Shown: positions 1,890 to 64,000 of the stretch, piece by piece
Numbering within the stretch: the first letter of the stretch is position 1
Layout: every line of letters starts with the position of its first letter
DNA from: Bacteroidia bacterium
Lineage (GTDB): Bacteria > Bacteroidota > Bacteroidia > 2-12-FULL-35-15
Assembly: GCA_030654175.1 (NCBI GenBank)
Contig: JAURXZ010000030.1
Coordinates: 310,001 to 374,000 of the forward strand
Direction of reading: 5' to 3'
DNA length: 64,000 bases
Made by a program: the position numbers and the translations under genes
Notes under the pieces: generated by a model
What the model was told of the DNA's origin: nothing
What the model saw: the letters and a program-made list of their open reading frames with translations, nothing else
Databases searched by the model: none

Positions 1890-4800
1890 TTATCTCAAAA
1901 TTGTAATTGGCCCTGTCAATACATCCGGGAAAAACGGATCATTCAAATTAATAATGTAATAATATGTTCCAACAGGTAATAATTTACCTTTGAATATGCC
2001 TTTCCATTTCTCGGTATATCCGGTTGATTGGAATAACAACTCACCCCATCGGTTATAAACTTCCACCACAGATTTAGGGAATAGTTCAATGTTATCGATA
2101 ATCCATTCGTCATTTGCCCCATCCGCATTAGGCGAAATACCATTTGCAAATGTAATGTTGGCAACCACAGTTACTATCACAATATCAGTTGAGGTACAAC
2201 CTTCGGCAGATGTAACTGTTACAGTATAAGTAGTAGTTACTGTAGGATTAGCAACAGGATTTGAATTTGTTCCATTATCTAATCCAAGTATCGGATCCCA
2301 TGAATAGGTAGCTCCAACAGGACCTGTAGGATTTCCTCCAAGTACAGTGGTGGTAGTTGCCAATATAGTAACATCAGCACCTGCATTTGCAACAGGTAAT
2401 GCATTTACCGTAACTGAAATTGTATCATTGTGCGCGCATCCTGCACCGTTATCAACTATCACATAATAGTCTGTTGTGCCTAATGGAGGTGTTACCGAAA
2501 CATCCATAACACTTCCAATCAGTGTATTTGCCGGAATCTGGAACCATTGATAATTGATAACGTTAGCACTGCTTCCTGTGGCACTTAACAACATGGTACC
2601 CGGTTCACAGAAAGCTGTATCATTTCCAGCCACAGCGTTAACTGTAACAGTTGATGTTATAATGATATTATCTGTAATAGTACAACCATTTGTATCAGTA
2701 ACTGTGATATCATAAGATCCTATTAAAATTCCGGCTAGATCCTGTGTAGTTAATGCAGAACCTCCACTCCATTGATATGTATAACCAGGTGTGCCACCGC
2801 CAACTGTAACATCAATTGCACCGTCCGCAATGGTATTACAACTTGCAGGTGTTGGAACATTTGAAATTGTTAATGAATCAGGATCAACCAGTGTATTTGA
2901 TTGTGAGGAAGTACAACCATTCGCATCGGTTACTGTTACAGTATAAATACCTGCCGCAAGGCCTGATGCAGTATCACTAACGCTGCCACTTCCTGTCCAG
3001 GAGAATGTATATGGAAGTGTTCCTCCAAACGGTATAACTGCAACAGAACCATTGCTATTTCCATTACACAAAGGATCAACTGAATTTGCTAAAGAAAATC
3101 CAATCGGGGCTGGATCAGTTATTTCAACCGAAGCGAATGAAACACAGCCACCACCTGTAACCTGCACAAAATAAGTACCTGCACAAAGTGCTGTTGCCAC
3201 ATCTGTTGTTTGGGCACCCGGATCATTCCACAAATAGGTATAAGGCAATATTCCTCCTGCTGCTACAACGGTTGCAGTTGCATTACAAGCTGCATTACAT
3301 AAAAGAGGAACAGATGATGTAGTAAGTGTTGGCGCATTCAAACTGTTTAGTGGCATCACTATACTTTGCGAGCATCCTACAAAATCAGTAATTTGAACTG
3401 AATAAAAGCCAGGGCATAAACTGCTTATTGTATCCAATACAGAACCCGTATTCCAAACAACAGTGTATGGTGCAGCACCTCCACTTGGAGCCACAGAAAG
3501 ACTTCCATCACAAGCACCACAAGTTGCCGCAGTAATAAACTGGTTAACAACCACCTGAGTAGGCTCAGTAATAATTACAGAATCAATTAAAGAACATCCA
3601 ATGCTATCTGCTATTTGAACATAATAAACACCTGCACCTAAATTGCTTAATGTTGGAGTGGTTTGTCCGCCCTGAATCCAAAGGTAAGAATAAGGAGGTG
3701 TTCCTCCGGCAGGTGTCACCGCAGTTACGCTTCCATCAGATAAACCGAAACAACTGATATTGGTAGAAGTAATGGCTGCACTTGTTGGTCCACCCGGATT
3801 ACTAATTGGTATTGAATAGCTTGAACTACAACCTGCACTATCAGTAATATTAACAGAATATAAGCCGGCACATAAATTTGTTTCTGTATCACTTGTTTGA
3901 CCGCTGCCCCATAAAAAAGTATATGGAGAAATTCCACCTGACGGGGACAATACTACCTGACCATCACATAAACCGCAAGTAGCATTTGTAATTATTGCAT
4001 TTGACAGAACAGTAGCCGCCTGCACAATAGTATCAGGTAATGAAATAGTACAACCAAATGAGTCAGTAACTATTACTGTATAGGTTCCAGGACAAAGGTC
4101 AGTGATCAAGGTATCAACTGATCCTGTATTCCATGCGAATGTATATGGAGCTGTTCCACCGGTAGGAGATGATTCTGATAAACCATCACAAACACCCAAA
4201 CAAGAAATATTACCAGTTGTAATATTTGGAACAATCTGAGTAGGTTGTGTGAGTGTTATTGAATCTGTATCAGGGCAACCATTCGCATCCGTTACAGTTA
4301 CAGTGTATCCTGAAATACACAATCCCGTGATGGTATCTGTGGCAGCAGTTTTTGTTAGGCTTGGACCCGATGACCAAACATAAGTAAAGTCTGGAGTGCC
4401 GCCAACCACAGTTGCAATTGCACTACCATTACAAACATTAAAACATGTAAGGTTTATCCCTGTTGCTGTAACATCAGGGCTGGAGTTTACGGTAACAACA
4501 ACTGCTGTTGTATCGGTGCATCCTGCTGATGTTGCACCTACAATATAATAGGTTCCTGCAACAGCTGTTGCAGGAGTTAAATATGATGTTGTAGCTATTG
4601 CATCTGTAAAATAAGTATAAGATAAACTAGCTGTTGAACCTAGTGTAACTGCTGCTGCTGTAATATCTACAGTTGCCGGAGAGCAAACCGCTGCAGGGTT
4701 ATTGATAACTACTGTTGGAAATACATTAAATGTAATGGTTACACTGTCCATAGAAACGCAAGGAGCATTTGTAATTGTCCACCTTAAAACATAGGTACTT

Positions 4801-7800
4801 CCTGCTGTACCACTAAATAGGGTGGTAGGATCAGATGCAAGAACAAAACTTCCTCCCACTCCGCTAGAAACACTCCAGCTTCCTGTTCCGATTATTGGAG
4901 AATTCGCTGAAAGGGTTACCGAAGTTAAGCCGCAAGTAAAAGAACCTGTTTGGTCTGGCCCGGCAGTAGCAGTTGTAGGAGCTTGATTAAATTTAATTGT
5001 TACACTGTCGGTCGAAGCTGTACAAGGAGCATTTGAAATTGTCCATACTAAAACATAAGTATTTCCTGCTGTTCCGCTAAACACTGTAGTAGGATCAGTT
5101 GCAAGAACAAAACTGCCCCCAACTCCACTAAAAATGCTCCAGTTACCTGTTCCTATAATTGGCGCATTTGCTGCAAGAGTAACCGAAGTTAATCCGCAGG
5201 TAGCAGAACTCGTTTGGTCTAATCCGGCAGCAGCAGTTGTAGGAACCTGATTAAATTTAATTGTTACACTGTCGGTAGATGCTGTACAAGGGGCATTTGA
5301 AATGGTCCATATCAAAACGTAGGTATTTCCAGCTACTCCATTAAATATGGTAGTTGGATCAGTTGCAAGAGTAAAACTTCCTCCTGCTCCACTGAAAATA
5401 CTCCAACTTCCAGTTCCTATTATTGGTGCATTTGCTGCAAGGTTAGCAGAGGTCAATCCACAGGTAGCTGTATTAATTTGGTCCGGCCCAGCGGCTGATA
5501 TCGTAGGTAAGTCATTAATAGTAACAGAATTTATCGCGAAAGCTGCGGGGCAACCTCCAGATGCAGCAATAGTATTAGTTACAACATATGTTCCAGGTGT
5601 ACTTGCAGAAAGGTCTATTTGGCCGGTTGCCGCATTAATAAAGATGAGACCAGGTGTAGAACTAAAAGTTCCTGCACTTGACCCGAGAGGGAAAGTTGGA
5701 GACGGGTCAGGACTTCCACCCAGGCAATAAGGTCCCAAATAACTAAATGTGGCTGATGGGGATAAAGTAATGGTAATATTAAAAACACCGGTATTCGGAC
5801 AAGGTCCGCTGGTAGTGTATGTTATAATATAGGTCCCTAAAACACTTCCTGCTAAATCAATCTCACCTGTATTTGCATCAACAAATACTAATCCTATTGT
5901 TGAACTAAATGTTCCTCCGGGCAAACCTGTAACTATTGGCGTAGGATTGATCCCTGCTTGACAAAAAGTGGATAAAGAATAAGTAAAAGATGCATCATCA
6001 ATGGCATTAATTGTTAATGGGAATGTTGCAGAATTTGCAGAGCAACCTCCAGATGCAGCAATGAAATTAGTAATTGTATATACCCCCGGAGCGCTCGCTA
6101 CAATATCGATTTCACCTGTATTGGCATCTGCAAATACTAGGCCTGCCGGTAGAGCTGAAAAAGCTCCTGCACTTGATCCAAGAGGAAATACAGGCAAAGG
6201 ATTTGAACCTATTCCCTGGCAATAAGATGGTGCAGCGTAACTAAATGTTGCGTCAGGCAATAAAGTAATGGTTACAATAAAAATACCTGTATTTGGACAT
6301 GGTCCATTAGTAGTGTAAGTTATAGTGTATGTACCCAACGTACTTCCAGCCAAATCTATTTCTCCGGTAAGTGCACTAACAAAAACCAAACCTGGTGTGG
6401 AACTATAAGTTCCTCCGGCTAATCCCGTTACAATTGGTGTTGGATTGGCTCCTGTTTGACAAAAAGTTGATAGGGGATAACTGAAGGTTGCATCATCCAA
6501 AGTATTAATAGTTATTGTTGATGTTGCAGTTACAATAGGACAGCCATTTGTGGCAACGATTGTATTAGTTACAGTATAAGTCCCTGAAATACTTGCAGCC
6601 AGATCTACTTCCCCTGTAGATGCACTGACAAAAGACAAACCTGCTGTGGAACTAAATGTACCTGCTACCCCACCTCCACTGAATGTTGGAAATGGATTAA
6701 TACCATTTGGGCAATAAGGTGTTCCTGTATAGCTGAAAGTGGCTACAGGCAGTGCGGTTATCGTTATCGGGGAAGTGGCTGTTACAATGCCACAACCTGC
6801 TGAAGCTGCTATGGTATTGGTTATCGTATAAGTTCCTGCCGTGCTTAATGCCAGATTAACTTCTCCGGTTACTGCACTTACAAATACCAATCCTACGGTG
6901 GAGCTGAATGTGCCTGCGACTCCACCACCATTGAACGTTGGGAAAGGATTGACTCCATTCTGACAATAAGGAGTGCCGGTATAGCTAAAAGTAGCTACAG
7001 GCAGGGCCGTTATCGTTATTGGGGAAGTGGCTGTTACAATGCCACAACCTGCTGAAGCTGCTATAGTATTGGTTATCGTGTAAGTTCCTGCTGTGCTTAA
7101 TGTCAGATTAACTTCTCCGGTTGATGTACTTACAAATACCAATCCTGCGGTAGAACTGAAAGTACCAGCATTTGATCCAAGAGGGAATGTTGGAGAAGGG
7201 TTAGCAGCATCCTGGCAATAAGGTGTTCCTGTATAGCTGAAGGTGGCTAAAGGCAGTGCGGTTATCGTTATTGGGGAAGTGGCTGTTACAATACCACAAC
7301 CTGCTGAAGCTGCTATGCTGTTGGTTATTGTGTAAGTTCCAGCGGTGCTTAATGCCAAATTAACTTCTCCGGTTGCTGTACTTACAAATACCAATCCTGC
7401 GGTGGAGCTAAATGTGCCAGCCACTCCGCCACCACTAAATGTTGGGAAGGGATTAACTCCATTCTGACAATAAGGGGTGCCGGTATAGCTAAATGTTGCT
7501 ACTGGCAATGCTGTAATGGTAAATGGTGACGTGGCGGTAACTAAAGGACAAGCACCAGAAGCCGCAATGGTATTGGTTACCGTGTAAGTTCCAGCCGTGC
7601 TTGCAGCAAGATCAATTTCCCCGGTTACTGTACTTACAAATACCAATCCTACAGTGGAACTGAAAGTACCAGCACTTGACCCAAGGGGAAATGTTGGAGA
7701 AGGATTAGCAGCATCCTGGCAATAAGGTGTTCCGGTATAACTAAATGTTGCCGAAGGTGCAGTTGTTATAGTTACATCAAAAGTAGAGTTATTAGGACAC

Positions 7801-10800
7801 AGGCCATTAGAGGTATACGTTACAGTGTATGTTCCAAGAGTACTTAATGCTAAATCTATCTGACCTGTTGCGGTGCTTACAAAAACCAACCCTACCGTTG
7901 AACTAAATATACCACCCGGTAGTCCAGTTACTATTGGGGTAGGATTAGCGGGATCCGTTTGGCAATAAGTGGATAATGCGTACGTGAAAGATGCATCATC
8001 TAACGGGTTAACAGTTAATGACTGTTGAGCAGTTTGTATTCCGCCACATCCTCCGTTTATGGTAAATATGATATCACAAGTACCTGCCCCTACACCTGTT
8101 ACCAAGCCTGTTGTTGCATCAACAGTAGCAACTAATATATCGCTGCTGCTCCACGAGCCCACTCCACCAGCAAGCACCACTGAATTAGCAGTATAGGTGG
8201 TCGTACCGATTACACAAAGTGGTGTTGTTCCGGTTACAGAAACTATACTTGCATTCGGAGTTATGGTTAATATCTGTTGAGCAGTTTTTATTCCACCACA
8301 TCCTCCGTTTATGGTAAAAATGATATTGCAGGTGCCTGCAGCTATACCTGTAACTAAGCCCGTACCATCAACAGTGGCAACTAAGATGTCGCTGCTGCTC
8401 CATGACCCAACCCCGCCACCAAGCACCACAGAGTTAGCTAAATATGTGGCTGTTCCACCAATACAAAGCGGTGTTGTTCCTGTTACAGAAGCAATGCTCG
8501 CATCTGGAATTATAGTTAATGATTGCTGTGCACTTTGTAGTCCATTACATCCACCGGTTATGGTATGTATAATATTACAAGTACCCGCAGCTATACCCGT
8601 TACCAGGCCGGCTCCATCTACAGTGGCAACTAAAATATCGCTGCTGCTCCATGCGGCAACTCCGCCACCAAGAACCACTGAATTAGCAGTATAAGTATCC
8701 GTTCCACCAATACAAAGCGGTGTAGTTCCGGTTACAGAAACAATGCTCGCATTTGGAGTTATGGTTAGCGACTGTTGTGCGGTTTGTATTCCATTACATC
8801 CTCCATTAACAGTATATATAATATCGCAAGTGCCTGCCCCTACCCCCGTCACTAAACCTGCTCCATCTACAGTGGCTATTAATACATTACTGCTGGTCCA
8901 GCTTCCACCTGAATCACCATCACTGGAGTAATTAGCAGTTGCGCCAATACAAAGAGGTGAGGTACCGGTTACAGTACCCGCATTAGCACCGGGGTCAAGC
9001 GTAACCAACACTGGGGTTGTATCAGTACAACCGCCTGGTGTTGAACCTACAATATAATAGGTCCCAACAGGCACCGCTGTCTCATCCGGAACGGAAATTG
9101 TTGCGATGCTATTTGTAAAGTAGGTAAATGTTAGTCCACCAGTAGATCCGGCTGTTACACCTGGCAAAGTAAGATCAGTAGTAACTGAAGGGGAGCATAT
9201 TGACTGCGGTACCGTAACCACCGTAGGTATTGCATCGGAAATCACATTTACTGCAGTTGTATCAGAACATCCAGCCAATGTAACCCCTACAATATAATAA
9301 GTAGCTGCAACAGCTGCTGCAGGAGTCGGATAAACTGTTGTAGCTCCGGCATCTGAATAGTAAGAAAAAGATAAACCACCGGTTGAACCAAATGTTACCG
9401 CAGCTAAAGTAATATCAGCAGTTGCAGGTGAACAAATTGGTGCAGGATCATTGGTAATTACAGTCGGTTTAGGATTTACAGTAACTGTTATCCCTGTGGT
9501 GTCATAACAGCCGGCCGTAGACTGACCAACAATATAATATGTACCAGCTCCGGCAACTGTAGGAGTCCCAAACGTTATTGTTGCAGCGGCATCCGTAAAA
9601 TAAGTAAATGTTAATAAAGGTGTAGAACCAAACGTAGCAGCCGGCTGGGTAATGTCAACTGTTAATAATGGTGTGCATATTGGTTGAGGCACTGTAATTA
9701 CTGTTGGTTTAGGACTAACCGTAACAACAACAGAAGCAGTATCGGAGCAGCCTTGTGGTGTTGCACCAACAATATAATAAGTTCCGGCAGTTGCAACCGT
9801 AGGTGTAGCATAAGGTGATGTGGCGCCAGGGTCAGTAAAATAAGTATAGCTTAATCCTCCTCCGGATGTAACAGCAGGCAAGGTAAGATCGGCTGTTGTT
9901 GCAGGTGTACACACATTTTGGGGTACTGTAACTAAGTCTGGTTTTGGATCAATAGTAACAACTACCGCAGTGGTATCAGAGCATCCAGCTCCAGTGGAAC
10001 CAACAATATAATATGTACCAGTACCAGCAGTTGTTGGTGTTGCAAAGGTTATTGTTGCCGGGGCATCAGTAAAGTAAGTAAAAATCAATCCTCCTGTTGA
10101 ACCGGCTGTTACTGCCGGTAAAGTAATATCAATTGTACCAGGCGAGCATATCGATTGAGGAACTGTATTTACTGTCGGCTTTGGATTTACAGTATAAGTT
10201 AATCCGTCAACAGTAGAACACCCTCCCGGTATGGTACCCTTAATATAATAGGTTCCGGCTGTGGCTACTGTAGGTGTTAAATAAGCTATTGTAGCTCCGG
10301 GGTCTGTAAAATAAGTAAAAGTCAAGCCTGGGTCAGAACCAGCAGTAACAGCGGCCAATGTTAAGTCAATGGTAGTAATTGGGGAACAAGTTGCCTGATT
10401 TAATGCCACTACTATAGGTTGTGCATCTATAGTAACCAATACGGAAGCAGTATCGGTACATCCGAAAACAGTTGAACCTACTATATAATAGGTACCCGCA
10501 CTTGCCGTTGTTGGTGTTCCATAAACAATAGTTGCAGCTGCATTTGTAAAATAAGAATAACTCAAACCGGCAGTAGAACCAGCAGTAACCGCTGCCGCAG
10601 TAAGATCCACTGTTGCAGGTGCACATACGTCCTGAGCTACGGTAATTACATCTGGTTTTGGATTTACTGTAAAATCTACAGCGGTAGTATCAGCACAGCC
10701 ATCAGGAGTAGTACCAACAATGTAATAAGTTCCGGCAACTGCGGCTGTCGGATCAGGAACGGCAATTGTTGCAGCTGCATCAGTAAAATAAGTATAAATC

Positions 10801-13800
10801 AAACCAGGAGTAGAACCTGCTGTTACAGCTGCTAAAGTCAAATCAGTTGTTGTGGTGGGTAAACAAGCGGCCTGATCAGTAGTAAGAACCACCGGGGCTA
10901 ATGTAACATCAACTGATGTTATATTGGAACATCCTGTTGCCGGCACAGTACCAACAATATAATATGTTCCTGCACCAACTGCTGTTGGGTCTGCAACAGG
11001 AATAGTTGCTCCCGGATCGGTAAAGTAAGTAAAGTTCAGACCTGGTGTGGATCCCGTTGTTACTGAATCGGCAGTAAGATTCGCTGAAAGACTTAAGCAG
11101 AGCGATAAAGGAATAGCAACTACAGTTGGTTGTGGATTGATTGTTACAGTTACAGGTTCAATATCAGAACAGCTGCCCAATGTGCCCACAATATAATAAG
11201 TACCACTGGCTGATACAGCTGAAGGGCTTGGGTTCGGCATTGTTAGTCCGGCATCTAAAAAGTAAGTTAAAACCCCAAGGCCGGTAGACCCGGCAGTAAC
11301 CGCAGGTAAAGTAAGGTCAACAGTTGCTGGTGCACATACTGCTGCAGGAGGGGTGATAATTACATCAGGGGTTGGATTAATTGTAACCGTAACCGCTGTG
11401 GTATCGGAGCAGCCGCCAACTGTAGAACCAACAATGTAATAAGTTCCTGTTCCCACTGCCGTAGGAACCCCAACAGGAGTTGTTGCCCCGGCATCTGTAA
11501 AGTAAGTAAACGATAAGCCACCGGTTGATCCAGCAGTAACTCCACCTAAAGTGAGGTTCACTGTTGAAGGCGAACAAGCTGTTTGTGGAACGGTTACAAC
11601 TGTTGGTTTAGGGGTAATCGTTACTATTACGGCTGCTGTATCTGTACATCCTGACCCCGGATTTACTGTACCAACAATATAATAGGTACCTGAAGTTGCT
11701 GTTGTTGGTGTTGGATATGAAATTGTAGCAGCGGCATCTGTAAAGTATGTGAATGTTAAACCTGCTGTAGAACCAGCAGTAACGGCAGCCAATGTAAGAT
11801 CCACTGTTGCAGGAGCACATACTGTAGCAGGATTATTGGTAACTAAGTCCGGTTTAGGATTGATGGTAACTGTTACAGCAGTGGTATCTGAACATCCACC
11901 AATTGTACCGACAATATAGTAGGTACCTGTTGTTGCTAACGTAGGTGTAATATGCGCAATGGTTGCCCCTGCATCCATCCAATACGTAAAACTTAAACCG
12001 GGTGTTGAACCTGCAGTTACACCAGCCAATGTAAGATTAACTTTTGCGGGTGAACAAGCTGCCTGTGGGACTGTAATTACTGTTGGAGTTGTGTTAACAG
12101 TCACGGTAACAGCACTTGTATCACGACAACCTTCCGGTGTTAAACCCACAATATAATAGGTTCCGGCTGGTGCAACTGTAGGTGTGCCGTAAACCAATGT
12201 TGCACCGGCATCTGTAAAATAAGTAAATGTCAAACCTCCGGTAGAACCAAGCGTTATAGCTGGGGCAGTAAGGTCAACTGTTGCTGGTGAGCATACCGTT
12301 TGGTTATTCGTAACCACATTTGGCGAAGGGTTAACAGTAACATCTACAGCTGTTGTATCCGAGCAAAAACCTCCAAGTGTACCAACAATATAATAAGTGC
12401 CTGCCGTTGCTGCTGCCGGAGTTCCATATACCAATGTTGCGCCTGCATCTGTAAAATAAGTAAAAACCAGCCCCGGAGTTGAACCTGCGGTAACAGAAGG
12501 ATCTGTGAGGTCGGCAGTAGTTGCTGGTGAACATACAGTTTGAGGTACGGTAATCAGATCTGGTTTTGTATTTACCGTTACCGTTACTGCTGCGGTATCA
12601 GCACAACCACCCACAGCTGTGCCAACAATATAATAAGTCCCAGCTGTTGCTACTGTTGGAGTAGCGTAAGCCAAAGTTGCACCGGCATCTGTAAAATAAG
12701 TAAAAGTGAGTCCGCCTGTAGAACCTGCTGTAACTGCGGGATCCGTAAGGTCAGCTGTTGCCGGTGAACATAAAGCAACAGGATCAGTAATAACTAAGAT
12801 TGGAGATGCATTTACGGTAACTGTTTTTATTGCAGTGTTTACACAACCGCCAATAGTAACTGAATAAGTAATATCAGATGTTCCAACAGAAACAGCAGTA
12901 ACTAAACCAGATGCGGCACCAACGGTGGCTACCCCGGGAGTTGCACTGCTCCATGTTCCTCCAGGAGAGGTGCTGGTCCAGGTGGCTGTTGCACCAACGC
13001 AAAGAGGTGATGTGCCGGTTATTACCTGAGGTGTTGGGTTAGAAACTGTTACTGTCTTAATTGCTGTATTCACGCACCCCCCAATAGTTACTGAATAGGT
13101 GATGTCGGATGTGCCGGCTGAAATACCTGTTACCAGACCAGAGGCTGCACCAACCGTTGCTACTCCAGGAGTAGCACTAGACCAAGAACCGCCACCTGTA
13201 GTACTGGTCCAAACAACTGCATCACCAACACAAATTGGTGAGGTGCCTGTTATTACCTGAGGGGTAGATGCTGTGATAGTAACTGTTTTTATTGCCGTAT
13301 TTACACAGCCTCCAATGGTTACTGAATAAGTTATGTCAGAAGTGCCAGCTGCAATACCAGTTACAATACCTGAGGCGGCACCAACAGTAGCAACCCCTGG
13401 CGTTGCGCTGCTCCAGGTTCCACCAGGAGAAGTACTGGTCCAGGTGGCGGTAGCTCCCACACAAATCGGTGTTGTGCCTGAAATTACCTGGGGAGTGGGT
13501 GCTGAAACTGTTACAGTTATTGGGTAAGAGGCGCCCGGACAACCATTAATTGTATTATTTACAGACAAAACAGCATTGTAAACACCAACAGCAGCTCCTC
13601 CGGGAACAACCAAAACGATAGGACTTGCAGGCAATACCTGATTTACTACATCTACAAACCCCTGCCCTTCGGCTGTTGCATCAAAATTAACGCTGTATTG
13701 ATTTGGGCTTCCACCCGTAGAACTATAGGTAAGGTTAGCAGTAAGGGTTCCCACACAAACTTCAGGATTAGCACCTAAAGTAAGTGCCGGTAGTTGTCTG

Positions 13801-14456
13801 ATGGTAACCTTGGTGTTTATAGGCTCTCCTATACAACCGTCTGCCGTTGGAATTATATTATATGTAGCAATACCGGAAGATGGCCCTGTAGTATTTAATG
13901 TTTGAGAAATTAAACTTCCGGCACCTGGAGATGCGCCAGACACGCCTGCCTGAATAACGGTCCAGGCAAAAGTGGTACCAACAACATCACTTGTTATTGC
14001 AACAGAAGATGTGGCCCCAGAACAGATAGTTGAATTTGAGGCAATAGCTAAGGGAATAGGGTTAACAGTAATGTTGATAACAATCGGAGTCCCACCTGCA
14101 GGGCAACCAGCTGTAAAAGGTGTAACTGTATAAGCCACAGTGCCAGGAAAAACCTCTACGGCAGTTAAAGTGTCCCCAATAGTGGACCCACAACCAGTGG
14201 AGCAGTCACTAGAACCTACAACATCGGTTTGAACAGCAGTCCAGGTATATGTAGTCCCCCCAAGATCACTTGTTAAAGCAATTGCTGTAATTGTTCCGGA
14301 ACAAATGGTTGTTGCAGCAACGGGATTGGCAACGGGACATTGAGCCCTCCCTTTTTGAAAGGAAATTAAAAAGAATAGAACAAAAGCAAGCTGCAAAGAT
14401 CTTTGCAGCCTGAATATCTGAGCTTTATTCAAAATGTAATATGTAAAGCTATGCAT
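1890..14456 (-). CDS. Giant SprB-like secreted adhesin, 4188 residues, T9SS type B sorting domain
   Basis: Predicted cell-surface adhesin exported by T9SS. Order of parts: signal peptide ending GRA/QC near residue 39; two PKD-like repeats (40-225); one unique domain; three Big_2-like repeats (about 321-545); sixteen tandem repeats of about 80 residues with the signature FTYFTDAGAT...GTYYIVG (about 547-1819); four further Big_2-like repeats; ten repeats with FSYTGTPYC (about 2149-2982); three PKD-like repeats with TCGLTSVTLAANAPIIGTG; one more FTYFTDA repeat; eight SprB repeats with GGT.PY.Y.W and TVTVTD.NGC (about 3327-3935); two Ig/PKD-like domains; and a gliding-motility-associated C-terminal domain from about 4100, beginning NGISPNADGANDEW. 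That domain is the type B sorting signal. The PorP/SprF gene follows. Adhesion or gliding is inferred; the substrate is unknown. Confidence 0.93.
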   Translation of the reverse strand: MHSFTYYILNKAQIFRLQRSLQLAFVLFFLISFQKGRAQCPVANPVAATTICSGTITAIALTSDLGGTTYTWTAVQTDVVGSSDCSTGCGSTIGDTLTAVEVFPGTVAYTVTPFTAGCPAGGTPIVINITVNPIPLAIASNSTICSGATSSVAITSDVVGTTFAWTVIQAGVSGASPGAGSLISQTLNTTGPSSGIATYNIIPTADGCIGEPINTKVTIRQLPALTLGANPEVCVGTLTANLTYSSTGGSPNQYSVNFDATAEGQGFVDVVNQVLPASPIVLVVPGGAAVGVYNAVLSVNNTINGCPGASYPITVTVSAPTPQVISGTTPICVGATATWTSTSPGGTWSSATPGVATVGAASGIVTGIAAGTSDITYSVTIGGCVNTAIKTVTITASTPQVITGTSPICVGDAVVWTSTTGGGSWSSATPGVATVGAASGLVTGISAGTSDITYSVTIGGCVNTAIKTVTVSNPTPQVITGTSPLCVGATATWTSTSPGGTWSSATPGVATVGAASGLVTAVSVGTSDITYSVTIGGCVNTAIKTVTVNASPILVITDPVALCSPATADLTDPAVTAGSTGGLTFTYFTDAGATLAYATPTVATAGTYYIVGTAVGGCADTAAVTVTVNTKPDLITVPQTVCSPATTADLTDPSVTAGSTPGLVFTYFTDAGATLVYGTPAAATAGTYYIVGTLGGFCSDTTAVDVTVNPSPNVVTNNQTVCSPATVDLTAPAITLGSTGGLTFTYFTDAGATLVYGTPTVAPAGTYYIVGLTPEGCRDTSAVTVTVNTTPTVITVPQAACSPAKVNLTLAGVTAGSTPGLSFTYWMDAGATIAHITPTLATTGTYYIVGTIGGCSDTTAVTVTINPKPDLVTNNPATVCAPATVDLTLAAVTAGSTAGLTFTYFTDAAATISYPTPTTATSGTYYIVGTVNPGSGCTDTAAVIVTITPKPTVVTVPQTACSPSTVNLTLGGVTAGSTGGLSFTYFTDAGATTPVGVPTAVGTGTYYIVGSTVGGCSDTTAVTVTINPTPDVIITPPAAVCAPATVDLTLPAVTAGSTGLGVLTYFLDAGLTMPNPSPSAVSASGTYYIVGTLGSCSDIEPVTVTINPQPTVVAIPLSLCLSLSANLTADSVTTGSTPGLNFTYFTDPGATIPVADPTAVGAGTYYIVGTVPATGCSNITSVDVTLAPVVLTTDQAACLPTTTTDLTLAAVTAGSTPGLIYTYFTDAAATIAVPDPTAAVAGTYYIVGTTPDGCADTTAVDFTVNPKPDVITVAQDVCAPATVDLTAAAVTAGSTAGLSYSYFTNAAATIVYGTPTTASAGTYYIVGSTVFGCTDTASVLVTIDAQPIVVALNQATCSPITTIDLTLAAVTAGSDPGLTFTYFTDPGATIAYLTPTVATAGTYYIKGTIPGGCSTVDGLTYTVNPKPTVNTVPQSICSPGTIDITLPAVTAGSTGGLIFTYFTDAPATITFATPTTAGTGTYYIVGSTGAGCSDTTAVVVTIDPKPDLVTVPQNVCTPATTADLTLPAVTSGGGLSYTYFTDPGATSPYATPTVATAGTYYIVGATPQGCSDTASVVVTVSPKPTVITVPQPICTPLLTVDITQPAATFGSTPLLTFTYFTDAAATITFGTPTVAGAGTYYIVGQSTAGCYDTTGITVTVNPKPTVITNDPAPICSPATADITLAAVTFGSTGGLSFSYYSDAGATTVYPTPAAAVAATYYIVGVTLAGCSDTTAVNVISDAIPTVVTVPQSICSPSVTTDLTLPGVTAGSTGGLTFTYFTNSIATISVPDETAVPVGTYYIVGSTPGGCTDTTPVLVTLDPGANAGTVTGTSPLCIGATANYSSDGDSGGSWTSSNVLIATVDGAGLVTGVGAGTCDIIYTVNGGCNGIQTAQQSLTITPNASIVSVTGTTPLCIGGTDTYTANSVVLGGGVAAWSSSDILVATVDGAGLVTGIAAGTCNIIHTITGGCNGLQSAQQSLTIIPDASIASVTGTTPLCIGGTATYLANSVVLGGGVGSWSSSDILVATVDGTGLVTGIAAGTCNIIFTINGGCGGIKTAQQILTITPNASIVSVTGTTPLCVIGTTTYTANSVVLAGGVGSWSSSDILVATVDATTGLVTGVGAGTCDIIFTINGGCGGIQTAQQSLTVNPLDDASFTYALSTYCQTDPANPTPIVTGLPGGIFSSTVGLVFVSTATGQIDLALSTLGTYTVTYTSNGLCPNNSTFDVTITTAPSATFSYTGTPYCQDAANPSPTFPLGSSAGTFSSTVGLVFVSTVTGEIDLAASTAGTYTVTNTIAASGACPLVTATSPFTITALPVATFSYTGTPYCQNGVNPFPTFSGGGVAGTFSSTAGLVFVSTATGEVNLALSTAGTYTITNSIAASAGCGIVTATSPITITALPLATFSYTGTPYCQDAANPSPTFPLGSNAGTFSSTAGLVFVSTSTGEVNLTLSTAGTYTITNTIAASAGCGIVTATSPITITALPVATFSYTGTPYCQNGVNPFPTFNGGGVAGTFSSTVGLVFVSAVTGEVNLALSTAGTYTITNTIAASAGCGIVTATSPITITALPVATFSYTGTPYCPNGINPFPTFSGGGVAGTFSSTAGLSFVSASTGEVDLAASISGTYTVTNTIVATNGCPIVTATSTITINTLDDATFSYPLSTFCQTGANPTPIVTGLAGGTYSSTPGLVFVSALTGEIDLAGSTLGTYTITYTTNGPCPNTGIFIVTITLLPDATFSYAAPSYCQGIGSNPLPVFPLGSSAGAFSALPAGLVFADANTGEIDIVASAPGVYTITNFIAASGGCSANSATFPLTINAIDDASFTYSLSTFCQAGINPTPIVTGLPGGTFSSTIGLVFVDANTGEIDLAGSVLGTYIITYTTSGPCPNTGVFNITITLSPSATFSYLGPYCLGGSPDPSPTFPLGSSAGTFSSTPGLIFINAATGQIDLSASTPGTYVVTNTIAASGGCPAAFAINSVTINDLPTISAAGPDQINTATCGLTSANLAANAPIIGTGSWSIFSGAGGSFTLATDPTTIFNGVAGNTYVLIWTISNAPCTASTDSVTIKFNQVPTTAAAGLDQTSSATCGLTSVTLAANAPIIGTGNWSIFSGVGGSFVLATDPTTVFSGTAGNTYVLVWTISNAPCTASTDSVTIKFNQAPTTATAGPDQTGSFTCGLTSVTLSANSPIIGTGSWSVSSGVGGSFVLASDPTTLFSGTAGSTYVLRWTITNAPCVSMDSVTITFNVFPTVVINNPAAVCSPATVDITAAAVTLGSTASLSYTYFTDAIATTSYLTPATAVAGTYYIVGATSAGCTDTTAVVVTVNSSPDVTATGINLTCFNVCNGSAIATVVGGTPDFTYVWSSGPSLTKTAATDTITGLCISGYTVTVTDANGCPDTDSITLTQPTQIVPNITTGNISCLGVCDGLSESSPTGGTAPYTFAWNTGSVDTLITDLCPGTYTVIVTDSFGCTISLPDTIVQAATVLSNAIITNATCGLCDGQVVLSPSGGISPYTFLWGSGQTSDTETNLCAGLYSVNITDSAGCSSSYSIPISNPGGPTSAAITSTNISCFGLSDGSVTAVTPAGGTPPYSYLWIQGGQTTPTLSNLGAGVYYVQIADSIGCSLIDSVIITEPTQVVVNQFITAATCGACDGSLSVAPSGGAAPYTVVWNTGSVLDTISSLCPGFYSVQITDFVGCSQSIVMPLNSLNAPTLTTSSVPLLCNAACNATATVVAAGGILPYTYLWNDPGAQTTDVATALCAGTYFVQVTGGGCVSFASVEITDPAPIGFSLANSVDPLCNGNSNGSVAVIPFGGTLPYTFSWTGSGSVSDTASGLAAGIYTVTVTDANGCTSSQSNTLVDPDSLTISNVPTPASCNTIADGAIDVTVGGGTPGYTYQWSGGSALTTQDLAGILIGSYDITVTDTNGCTITDNIIITSTVTVNAVAGNDTAFCEPGTMLLSATGSSANVINYQWFQIPANTLIGSVMDVSVTPPLGTTDYYVIVDNGAGCAHNDTISVTVNALPVANAGADVTILATTTTVLGGNPTGPVGATYSWDPILGLDNGTNSNPVANPTVTTTYTVTVTSAEGCTSTDIVIVTVVANITFANGISPNADGANDEWIIDNIELFPKSVVEVYNRWGELLFQSTGYTEKWKGIFKGKLLPVGTYYYIINLNDPFFPDVLTGPITILR
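6740..7740. repeat. Near-identical tandem repeats of about 250 bp within the adhesin gene
   Basis: Within the FSYTGTPYC block, units beginning near 6740, 6990, 7245 and 7490 share long near-identical DNA stretches (for example ggggaagtggctgttacaat recurs at about 6769, 7021 and 7273). Other repeats in the same gene have diverged at third positions. This shows recent duplication or gene conversion in this part of the array. Confidence 0.75.
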
Positions 14457-44490: not shown

Positions 44491-44758
44491 ATAATTGCAA
44501 TTGATCAATTTAACAATGTTGCAGTTGGCAATTAAGATCAATTAAACAATTAAACACTAGGCAATTTACGTAGGGTTGCGTTAGGGATTGCAGCGAAAAT
44601 CCTTCTCCTTCGCTTTTTGCGAAGGAGAAGATTGAAGGGGAAAGCCCGCCCTTTCTTGTTTAAGAAAGGGAACGCCAAAAGAATTAAAATTTGTAAAAAA
44701 AATAAAGATTTAGTAAAAAATAAAGTCCGAAACTTCAATAAGCAAGTAATAATAAAAT
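44491..44758. other. Long nusA-infB gap with AT-rich simple repeats and a structured element
   Basis: 268 bp, long for genes normally packed together. Bases 44491-44570 carry drifting copies of caattaa/caatttaa. Bases 44578-44676 are the two-hairpin element described separately. Infb could have its own promoter after the element, but no clear one is seen. Confidence 0.6.
44578..44676. repeat. Dispersed two-hairpin element, copy 1
   Basis: Ends GCGTT and AACGC can pair. After the conserved gcgttagggattgcagcg comes a perfect 11-bp stem TTCTCCTTCGC/GCGAAGGAGAA with a TTTTT loop, then the conserved gattgaaggggaaagccc and a second hairpin CCCTTTCTT/AAGAAAGGG. Copy 2 is at 62805-62897. Confidence 0.8.
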
Positions 44759-61176: not shown

Positions 61177-62610
61177 TTAAAACTCAGCCGTTTTAGGTGC
61201 TCTTGGGAATGGTATCACATCACGGATATTGGTCATGCCGGTTACAAATAATACCAAACGCTCAAAACCTAATCCAAATCCTGCATGTGGGGCAGTTCCA
61301 AATTTTCGTGTATCTAAATACCAGTATAATTCATCAGTTGGGATGTGCATTTCATTCATGCGTTTTTCTAAAAACTCCAAACGTTCTTCACGTTGCGAAC
61401 CTCCAATTATCTCACCAATACCGGGAAATAAAATATCCATTGCACGAACAGTCTTTCCATCTTCATTCAAACGCATATAAAACGATTTAATGTCTTTTGG
61501 ATAATCCGTTAAAATAACAGGCTTTTTAAAATGTTTCTCCACAAGGAAGCGCTCGTGCTCACTTTGCAGGTCGGCACCCCAGTTTTCGATAAGGTATTTG
61601 AATTTTTTCTTTTTATTCGGTGTAGAATTTTTTAATATTTCGATCGCTTCTGTATAGGTAAGTCTTTCGAATTCTGTTGATGAGCAGAAATGCAATTTTG
61701 TTAACAGATCCATTTCAGAACGCTCGTCCTGTGGTTTTAACTTTTCTTCGTCCAACAAACGGGTTTTCAAAAATTCCAATTCATCAGCACAATTATCAAG
61801 GGCGTATTTTATTGTATATTGTAATAGATCTTCGGCTAATTTCGCATTATCATTCAGATCAGCGAAAGCTACTTCGGGCTCTATCATCCAAAATTCGGCA
61901 AGGTGACGAGCGGTATTTGAATTTTCGGCACGGAATGTTGGGCCGAATGTATACACTTCGCCCAATGCCATTGCACCTAACTCCGCCTCCAATTGACCGG
62001 AAACAGTAAGGTTGGTAGATTTTCCGAAAAAATCCTGTTTGAAATCTACTTTTCCTTCTTCCGTGCGGGGCGGATTATCAAAATCCAAAGCCGTTACACG
62101 AAACATTTCTCCTGCACCCTCAGCATCAGAAGCCGTAATAACAGGTGTATGCAGGTAAACAAATCCGCGATCGTTAAAAAACTGATGTATAGCAAATGCT
62201 AATGCATGACGAACTTTGAATACCGCATTAAATGTATTGGTACGAAAACGCAAATGTGCGATCTCCCTTAAAAATTCCAAACTGTGTTTTTTAGGTTGAA
62301 GCGGAAATTTTTCTGCATCACTATCACCTAATATTTCCAGGTGTTTTACTTTCACCTCCACCTTTTGGCCTTTCCCTAAAGACTCTATCAGTTCACCTGT
62401 AACACTAATAGCGGCACCTGTTGTAAGGCGTTTCAACAATGCTTCATCTGCATTTTGGAAATCCACCACAGCTTGTATATTATTTATTGTTGAACCATCA
62501 TTCACTGCAATAAACTGATTGTTACGAAAGGTGCGTACCCAGCCTTTTAAGTTTACTTCAGTTCCATAGGCCGTTGAATTTAACAGCTCTTTTACTTTTG
62601 TTCTTTTCAC
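61177..62610 (-). CDS. asnS: Asparaginyl-tRNA synthetase
   Basis: 477 residues from a GTG at 62610 ([18 protein letters not shown] follows), a normal size. An ATG at 62655 in the same frame is rejected because a predicted -7 element (62644-62651) would lie over it. Class II synthetase: an N-terminal OB-fold anticodon-binding domain ([20 protein letters not shown]), motif 2 region ([20 protein letters not shown]) and motif 3 ([19 protein letters not shown]). It charges tRNA-Asn in the cytoplasm. meaB follows closely. Confidence 0.96.
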
Positions 62611-62927
62611 GATATTCGGGGGTATTAAAAATGTTTTGAGGTACAAAAATAACAATTAAGTAATTTGAAATTTTAGTATTGTGATATAATATCGTTTTAA
62701 AGCCTTGCACATACTTCGACAGGCTCAGTATGACCAACACGGCTTGGTTTCCGACCTATTATTTGCATAAGTAAGTAATCATAACCTCTTTCGATGCGAA
62801 TGCTGCGTTAGGGATTGCAACGTAAATCCTTTTTGTTCTTCTCAAAAAGATTGAAGTGGAAAGCCCACCCCTTTCTTTTTCAAGAAAGGGAACGCCCAAA
62901 TTAATTTAAAATTTACTCTTCAAAAAC
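62611..62927. other. Gap between asnS and the phosphatase gene
   Basis: 317 bp. Contains a -7-like element CAAAAATA (read TATTTTTG on the minus strand, 62644-62651) for asnS, a short repeat-like sequence (cttcgacaggctcagtatga, 62715-62734), and copy 2 of the two-hairpin element (62805-62897). Confidence 0.55.
62805..62897. repeat. Dispersed two-hairpin element, copy 2
   Basis: Same layout as 44578-44676: gcgttagggattgcaacg, a variable stem CTTTTTG/CAAAAAG (7 bp, loop TTCTTCT), gattgaagtggaaagccc, then CCCTTTCTT/AAGAAAGGG and AACGCC. The variable stem has a different sequence from copy 1 but still pairs, with the same one-base bulge at its base in both copies. Confidence 0.8.
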
Positions 62928-64000
62928 TCACACCCTCAGCCCAATCACCATTATATCATCAATTTGCGCTCTGTCGCCCCTCCAATCAGAAGCCACTTTT
63001 TCTAACTTTAGTTTTTGTTCTTCCATACTTAAAGCGTGAATCTCTACTAACAAATCTCTAAATGGTTGATAATAGAACTTTTCATTACCCGGGCCTCCAA
63101 ACTGATCCACAAAACCATCCGAAAAGATATAAATACAATCACCTTTTTCCAATACTATTGTGTGGTTAGTAAATTGAAATGAGTTTTGTGATGAAAAACC
63201 TATAGATGCTTTGTCTGCCTTGGTTTCGTGAAGCACTCCGTTCCTGATCAAATACAAGGAATTGTGAGCTCCGGCATACTCCAATTGATTATACAAAGGA
63301 GTTTGATCAACTTTTTCAAAACCGGAATTTTTATCATTCCTCATCAGGCTTATCAATGCGATCTCCATTCCGTCATTGACTTTCCCCCGCTGATCTTTTT
63401 GACGCAACGATTCTACCACTAATTTGCTCAACTCATTTAAAACCATTGCAGGCTGATGAACATGATTTTTTTTCACCACCTGTTCTAATAAGTTATAGCC
63501 CATCATGCTCATAAATGCCCCGGGAACACCATGTCCGGTGCAATCAACAGCTGCTATAAATAGTTTGGATTGCGGTGCGGAGAACTCGGAATTAGAAATC
63601 TGATGAAACCAATAAAAATCACCGCTTACAATATCTTTGGGTTGATACAGAACAAATGATTCGGGCAGGTGTTTTTTTATTTCACCTAATGGTGGAAGGA
63701 TGGATTCCTGAATTCGTTTGGCATAGTTAATACTATCCGTGATCTTTTCATTTTTTTCATCCAACAGCTGGTTGGCCTTTTGTTTTTGACGATATCCTCT
63801 GTATATAAAAAAAGCGAGTATAAGCACAAATGTAAAGCCCATGATAAAGGCATTGCGCAAGATGACCTGTTTTTCAGCTTCAGCTTGCTGAGTAGATATT
63901 TCTGCATCTTTTTTGATCAGTGCTTTGTCTTTTTTTTCAGATTCATATTTTGTATTCATCTCCGCTATTTGTCCGCTGGAGGCCTCATTCAATAGGGTGT
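62928..64000 (-). CDS. SpoIIE-type serine phosphatase, C-terminal part (5' end outside window)
   Basis: About 357 codons are visible; the frame is open to the window edge. Order: the end of a helical region (KYESEKKDKALIKKDAEIST, a typical coiled segment after TPR repeats), one transmembrane helix (AFIMGFTFVLILAFFIYRGY), a second coiled segment, and a PP2C/SpoIIE domain with KDIVSGDFYWFH, AVDCTGHGVPGAFMSMMG, FSDGFVDQFGG and IDDIMVIGLRV holding the metal-binding Asp residues. Such proteins act at the inner membrane and dephosphorylate anti-sigma-antagonist-type proteins or other partners. The partner here is unknown. Confidence 0.93.
   Translation of the reverse strand, partial: TLLNEASSGQIAEMNTKYESEKKDKALIKKDAEISTQQAEAEKQVILRNAFIMGFTFVLILAFFIYRGYRQKQKANQLLDEKNEKITDSINYAKRIQESILPPLGEIKKHLPESFVLYQPKDIVSGDFYWFHQISNSEFSAPQSKLFIAAVDCTGHGVPGAFMSMMGYNLLEQVVKKNHVHQPAMVLNELSKLVVESLRQKDQRGKVNDGMEIALISLMRNDKNSGFEKVDQTPLYNQLEYAGAHNSLYLIRNGVLHETKADKASIGFSSQNSFQFTNHTIVLEKGDCIYIFSDGFVDQFGGPGNEKFYYQPFRDLLVEIHALSMEEQKLKLEKVASDWRGDRAQIDDIMVIGLRV

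Follow-up and report, generated by a model that had tools for sequence, protein, structure and literature searches.

Correia, RUP and ERIC families are short non-autonomous intergenic repeats with strong folds, and Flavo-1 is alike in these respects. It can also be likened to the attC sites of integrons, folded strands in which structure counts for more than sequence in recognition and whose apical part varies; unlike attC cassette arrays, Flavo-1 lies in both orientations equally. Another comparison is with REP/BIME repeats and their RAYTs, described in the accessible text of PMC3733652, with which Flavo-1 shares its intergenic palindromes, more than 100 copies and both orientations. Set against that same text, it differs in being ~100 nt long, with two hairpins, a closing stem and a hypervariable stem, no GTAG, and no RAYT linkage in the genome studied here. 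Flavo-1 itself appears as one table line in the accessible part of Weinberg 2010 (PMC2864571). In Rfam its type is sRNA gene, function not given, and PMC9029176, in the portion available, ranks the family with the most abundant sRNAs of bacteria and states no function. The literature naming Flavo-1, mostly non-subscription and accessible in part, yielded no mention of its mobility.

The window, by which we mean the whole 64,000-nt stretch of DNA analysed, holds two copies. Both belong to Rfam Flavo-1 (RF01705), membership being defined as a covariance-model score at or above the gathering cut-off of 42 bits: copy 1 scores 54.9 bits at 44575–44655 and copy 2 scores 46.5 bits at 62811–62866, with E-values within the window of 3.7e-9 and 7.4e-7. 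Given these E-values and the 130 copies over the cut-off in the genome, the repeat of the two copies is beyond chance. A sequence-only reading had already delimited them, and its coordinates and shared pieces are right (GCGTT at 44578–44582 and AACGCC at 44671–44676; GCGTT at 62805–62809 and AACGCC at 62891–62896); the common boxes, hairpin 2 and extra C at the base of stem 1 that it described are present in both copies. Its first-stem length of 11 bp stands for copy 1, while the 7 bp claimed for copy 2 is 6–7 bp according to the choice of bulged C. It had seen neither the known Rfam family nor a covarying pair in the internal loop between the boxes. That dinucleotide pair is already in the Rfam consensus structure, whose model of 76 positions is without the closing stem and does not treat hairpin 2 as a hairpin. 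Our description of the same family has a three-way fold and the behaviour of a mobile repeat in place of an sRNA gene. We consider it likely that Flavo-1 is a small non-autonomous mobile folded DNA element of Bacteroidota and not a stand-alone RNA gene; the family is a known one, and its filing as an sRNA is probably mistaken. Features of the two copies, and of sites elsewhere that are discussed below, are collected in Table 1.

Table 1. Flavo-1 features in the window, compared sites and companion elements
Feature	Coordinates	Strand	Remarks
Flavo-1 copy 1	44578–44676	+	between nusA and infB, sense with the operon; Rfam RF01705 54.9 bits
Closing stem 5' strand GCGTT, copy 1	44578–44582	+	pairs with 44671–44675; covaries in other copies and genomes
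Box 1 (GGGATTGCAGCGAAAATCC), copy 1	44584–44602	+	covarying dinucleotide 44593–44594
Hairpin 1, copy 1	44603–44629	+	hypervariable stem, 11 bp
Box 2 (GATTGAAGGGGAAAGCCC), copy 1	44630–44647	+	partner dinucleotide 44637–44638; internal-loop pair, covarying in other copies, is mismatched here, GC opposite GG
Hairpin 2, copy 1	44648–44670	+	no hairpin at this place in the Rfam model
Closing stem 3' strand and end AACGCC, copy 1	44671–44676	+	
Flavo-1 copy 2	62805–62897	+	antisense to both adjoining open frames; Rfam RF01705 46.5 bits
Open frames flanking copy 2	61177–62655, 62928–63992	both -	
Hairpin 1, copy 2	62830–62848	+	
Box 2, copy 2	62849–62866	+	internal-loop pair intact, AC opposite GT
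Hairpin 2, copy 2	62867–62890	+	
Closing stem 3' strand and end AACGCC, copy 2	62891–62896	+	
Sites without the element in G017	C34:126154, C19:94801, C31:181878, C31:142526, C34:329513		
Sites with a remnant in G017	C51:194823, C34:373499, C31:196535		C34:373499 inverted; C31:196535 decayed
Sites sharing a copy with G017	C6:215763, C16:201791, C16:231745, C34:328456		
Companion element, G000	C6:251815–252035, C31:478341–478570, C31:221949–222179, C17:108040–108260, C17:51250–51477		

Extent and arrangement of the family were surveyed in the source genome (5.1 Mb in 51 contigs). It holds at least 130 Flavo-1 copies over the cut-off, among 150 matches listed; this is a lower bound, since interrupted copies (L444 and L449) fall outside the match list. 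The copies are dispersed, with 64 of the 130 on the plus strand and only three overlapping open frames of 80 codons or more. With flanking genes called by a simple open-frame caller, 39 copies were sense to both neighbours, 37 antisense, 36 between convergent genes and 15 between divergent ones; all told, these stretches have 431 gaps of 20 bp or longer, of which 285 are tandem, 69 convergent and 77 divergent. Adjacent copies were on the same strand in 49 of 114 cases. The replication-strand bias expected of lagging-strand transposition was not seen, the counts showing a weak tilt only (33 plus and 25 minus where skew was positive, 29 plus and 40 minus where negative); given the short draft stretches, the test is a weak one. 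Within the genus, 16 of 25 genomes (G000 included) had Flavo-1 matches and nine had none at E≤1e-7, and across a sample of the class 123 of 396 genomes had matches at E≤1e-5, 96 of them over the cut-off.

Flavo-1 elements also occur on five IMG/VR contigs classed as viral (L246, L248, L251, L256 and L257); 20 viral contigs matched the box pattern, of which these five were real elements by eye and the remainder looked like chance.

All 130 copies over the cut-off were taken into the fold parse. The sequence-only reading held that the fold would be coincidental if the variable stem did not stay paired in further copies. It does stay paired: stem 1 has 49 distinct sequences and is Watson-Crick without a mispair in 111 of 130 copies. 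The flanking boxes, with consensus GATTGnARYGnAAATCC for box 1 and GATTGnARYGnAAAGCCC for box 2, look like direct repeats, yet they pair antiparallel through one dinucleotide. That pair is GC/GC in 69 copies, AC/GT in 45, GT/AC in six and other combinations in ten, and AC/GT is found with short, middle and long hairpins alike. Mutual information was 0.777 for a2-b3 and 0.206 for a3-b2, each above all 2000 shuffles, the next value in the 6x6 matrix being 0.115; these cells count copies, not independent events. The positions on either side are kept non-Watson-Crick, as A.G at a1-b4 and G.A at a4-b1 (127/130 each). Copying of one box onto the other cannot produce an AC facing GT, since its outcome would be AC against AC. 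The pair varies elsewhere as well: in 66 elements from 36 other genomes or contigs we counted GC/GC 27 times, GT/AC 15, CT/AG five, AC/GT five and AT/AT four, making five Watson-Crick combinations, with eight wobble and two mismatched pairs. From this set, elements misfitting the pattern were dropped uncounted, and several members are near-duplicates within one genome.

The end pairing GCGTT/AACGC, which had been proposed as making a three-way fold, is present in 111 of the 130 copies; GCGTG/CACGC replaces it in seven and GCATG/CATGC in one, and the other 11 are incompletely paired. Full Watson-Crick pairing of this closing stem in 119/130 copies must be read with the parse in mind, as the 3' partner is the best-pairing of a few candidates and so leans towards pairing (C27:461881 is plainly misparsed). 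Among 32 long-form elements from 12 other genomes or contigs, 29 had a fully paired closing stem, in four versions that include GCGTA/TACGC. The loop pair and the closing stem both covary within and between genomes, and the maintained fold and paired ends of the earlier reading are supported. Hairpin 2 has 74 distinct stems and is mispair-free in 79 of 130 copies, less perfect than hairpin 1. By eye, the short form of Flavo-1 in other genomes appears to be closed by AGC/GCT and to be without most of hairpin 2.

Which strand folds is suggested by the mispairs in the two hairpins. G.T outnumbers A.C by 23 to 8 (p 0.011), an excess that points to folding of the modelled strand, be it RNA or single-stranded DNA. 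For both window copies, none of 200 dinucleotide shuffles folds as well as the plus strand (z -4.26 for copy 1 and -2.63 for copy 2), and folding of the minus strands is good as well (z -4.77 for copy 1 and -2.29 for copy 2).

Several copies depart from the standard layout. Hairpin 2 was parsed as longer than 40 nt in 13 of 130 copies, one of them a misparse; long forms in G000 (C17:33072, C27:109891 and C40:27332) carry a nested CCTCACCCC...GGGGTGAGG palindrome whose presence varies between sister species. Comparison of L206:2452 with L206:4433 shows one copy without hairpin 1 and one box, like a precise deletion between boxes. Another palindromic repeat, of the CTTCGACAAGCTCAG type, sits inside Flavo-1 boxes or hairpin 1 in the G017 orthologues of C34:328456 and C6:215763, in L440, L444 and L449 near 1500, and in L209. 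Such an insertion hides these Flavo-1 copies from the Rfam cut-off.

Occupancy was compared at orthologous sites. We searched 36 genomes of the genus for the nusA-infB site, and in all 26 that have both genes copy 1 is absent, with a gap of 44–166 bp vs 268 bp here; in an alignment with three congeners, copy 1 stands as an insert. None of the 79 gaps in more distant relatives with both genes (of 80 loci) holds Flavo-1. Of these, 78 measure 0–123 bp, and the one in L148 is 404 bp without a box; in L139 there is a loose box match, but its gap of 58 nt could not accommodate the element.

More sites could be compared with a sister species, G017, whose infB stretch is 91% identical and whose assembly is 83% complete in 790 contigs. 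When 23 site probes were matched to it, 10 gave two-sided matches that were aligned and 13 were one-sided or unmatched. Twelve sites occupied here could be aligned in G017: five lack the element, three have only a remnant and four share the copy. Other sequence occupies the sites of C31:142526 and C34:329513 in G017, so past replacement or loss is possible at these two. No target-site duplication could be established at the empty sites, whose flanks are too diverged; the cleanest of them, C31:181878, allows a 3-bp repeat. The reverse view started from 26 G017 elements (27 parse hits, two of them to one and the same element, from 29 Flavo-1-matching contigs, of which 25 parsed). Seventeen are shared, seven match nothing near copies here (which may also reflect diverged flanks), one lies where the source genome is free of copies for 2.1 kb around, and one corresponds to a remnant here. 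Fourteen of the shared pairs were matched on both flanks and three (L468, L483 and L496) on one flank. That 17 of 26 are shared means that movement is slow and that many copies are old. Gain and loss are polarised by a third species at nusA-infB only.

Flavo-1 is therefore present at some and absent from other orthologous sites of close relatives, which is the behaviour of a mobile element. The conserved genomic place that marks an sRNA gene is lacking, with copy 1 absent from 26/26 congeners and many sites polymorphic between sister species (17/26 shared). The dispersed mobile element proposed from sequence alone is borne out by the orientation counts, by the absence at nusA-infB and by site differences with G017 in both directions. 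G022 has an element where the source genome has none (345 vs 26 nt between aligned blocks); the flanks align poorly and this case was not counted.

These data bear on whether Flavo-1 could be a structured RNA, such as a UTR, a processing or stability element or an sRNA, that happens to spread and whose transcript selects for pairing. The Rfam sRNA filing speaks for this, as do the mispair asymmetry, which marks one strand as RNA would, and the sense placement of copy 1 within the nusA-infB operon. For F. psychrophilum, the accessible text of PMC9723704 adds that Flavo-1 hits fall on several of the transcribed 5' regions, and the same text reports that hits seem to be indistinctly sense or antisense, with many outside transcribed regions. 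This mixture, with the near-equal sense and antisense counts here and the site polymorphism, runs against a selected transcript, and we hold this explanation to be unlikely. If instead the element is truly mobile DNA, then counts of the Flavo-1 sRNA family would measure transposition, not regulation, and searches for RNA targets would be misdirected.

Comparison of orthologous copies also revealed change within the element. Hairpin 1 differs between the source genome and G017 in 10 of 17 orthologous pairs. In seven of the 17 it has been replaced wholesale and is paired in both species; on both-flank matches the figure is 4/14, as the three single-flank pairs are all among the seven. At C16:201791, for example, a 28-nt hairpin here stands against TTTTCTGTTTAGAAAA in G017. 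The loop dinucleotide has switched on both sides to another Watson-Crick combination in five of 17 pairs (4/14), and at C16:226995 (L484) both sides switched with hairpin 1 unchanged. Twice, at C34:328456 and C27:109891, a long nested palindrome in hairpin 2 here is absent in G017. Wholesale replacement of tips at fixed sites is a new and odd observation. It provides a natural record of palindrome rewriting in cells, traceable through the fixed sites and conserved boxes. The changes could reflect either conversion from one copy to another or a template switch within the hairpin.

Template switching at palindromes might also perfect stems without any selection, leaving pairing as a by-product. 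Stem 1 is nearly always perfect while tips vary freely, just as such a process would leave them. The same process should erase the A.G and G.A loop mismatches, which are instead conserved in 127/130 copies each, and at L484 both dinucleotide sides switched without a change in hairpin 1. We therefore regard pairing as a by-product as very improbable.

Returning to a mobile folded DNA element, the following scheme would account for the fold. Each copy of ~100 nt consists of a closing stem, a long hairpin formed by two antiparallel near-repeat boxes with a free apical stem, and hairpin 2. From this fold we infer that an enzyme acting in trans may read the folded single strand, using the closing stem, the internal loop (conserved mismatches and covarying dinucleotide pair) and the bulged C, and ignoring the apical sequence. 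Indifference to apical sequence would leave the tips free to change while remaining paired. Lineage-specific bursts may raise the copy number, and old copies may be eroded by deletions and by other palindromic repeats that insert into them. Tips would pass from copy to copy through conversion, or a template switch at the hairpin would rewrite them. A bolder version, which we think doubtful, makes Flavo-1 a class of element whose recognition and rejoining take place on a folded single DNA strand, through an enzyme outside both the RAYTs and the known IS transposases. Its tips would be exchangeable modules cut or copied between dispersed copies, each element staying in place while it receives an unrelated stem that is perfectly paired. 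A genome with 130 copies, alongside congeners with few or none, is a tractable setting for finding the enzyme.

The obvious candidate for that enzyme was a RAYT, a Y1 HUH transposase moving Flavo-1 as a REP element, and a linked RAYT gene had been suggested from the sequence. Flavo-1 is short, palindromic, intergenic, in both orientations and in more than 100 copies, all as this would have it. RAYT genes, sought with NF047646 over 396 genomes (Y1_Tnp was used over 41), are present in 86 of 123 genomes with Flavo-1 vs 130 of 273 without (p 5e-5, uncorrected for kinship or genome size). Among rich genomes, defined as those with at least 10 scored Flavo-1 matches where scoring ended at 11 per genome, 20 of 27 have a RAYT. 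The other seven have none at E≤1e-10, though they could have lost an earlier one, and one of these, G401, in a single contig, has 28 Flavo-1 copies over the cut-off. No linkage was found in the source genome: its two RAYT genes, which match NF047646 at 100.8 and 99.8 bits, are both flanked by repeats unlike Flavo-1 and without its boxes. Only one of 34 Y1-transposase loci (best matches, mostly of the IS200 kind) has a Flavo-1 box pair, ~1.4 kb off, and GTAG appears at neither end in the upstream or downstream consensus of the 130 copies. RAYT as the likely driver was rejected on adjacency in the source genome and on co-occurrence. A weak positive association remains, which is mild and probably confounded. 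The putative enzyme thus does not appear to be a RAYT, and movement of Flavo-1 by one is highly unlikely.

Each of the two RAYT genes has a repeat of its own beside it (L112:4771-4902 and L113:3986-4797): in one case the copies measure 66 nt and contain GCGGGTGTTTTACACCCG, in the other they measure 77 nt and end in CACTAAGCGCAGCTTAGCGCCTAC. An autonomous carrier between paired copies was sought in low-copy relatives, and none was recognised in 20 stretches, in two of which open frames were read. L194 (G009:C1:79000-89000) has two Flavo-1 copies amid repeated Rhs-like gene fragments, so named by eye, and a 217-codon open frame lies upstream of the pair.

Some copies have inverted-repeat ends, which raises the comparison with MITEs that have RNA-like folds (Correia, RUP, ERIC and others; accessible part of the review PMC2229807). 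A AACCTGAGTTCGAT-like motif, with up to three mismatches and in the right orientation, lies at one or both ends of 15 of 130 copies. Within 260-nt flanks the motif is found in the right orientation 11 times upstream and eight downstream and in the wrong orientation four and three times, and by this control some of the 15 would be chance matches. Over the whole genome the motif has 54 matches vs 12 for a control. At 13 loci the motif has no more than one mismatch: seven of them are at Flavo-1 copies (four over the cut-off, one at 31.2 bits and two interrupted), five are ends of four Flavo-1-free elements, and one is at neither. A profile of the upstream arm matched 23 of 130 copies at E≤0.01; 11 of these reach the motif, including seven that were its own seeds and a neighbouring MITE (C17:51138).

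Flavo-1 might accordingly be the core of a DDE-transposase MITE with AACCTGAGTTCGAT terminal inverted repeats, its ends mostly lost. The 15 copies with the motif, the excess over control and the seven of 13 near-exact loci at Flavo-1 all fit. Unlike in Correia/RUP/ERIC-type MITEs, the inverted-repeat ends are found in a minority of copies and outside the conserved core, and no partner transposase was found: an autonomous partner of 1–1.5 kb with a transposase was recognised at none of the 30 loci scanned among the 54 motif matches. Moreover, one insertion of Flavo-1 into a MITE would look identical. We rate a MITE core as rather improbable. The inverted repeats mark either one of the ways in which Flavo-1 spreads in this lineage or a single past landing of Flavo-1 in that MITE. 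The Flavo-1-free companion element is ~220–230 bp long and has AACCTGAGTTCGAT-like inverted-repeat ends, which some Flavo-1 copies have in common with it; its inner hairpins resemble AACCACGGTCTGAAGACCGTGGTT and ACCCACGTCTT/AAGACGTGGGT.

Elsewhere in the window, the minus strand carries a single open frame of 4188 codons at 1890–14456.
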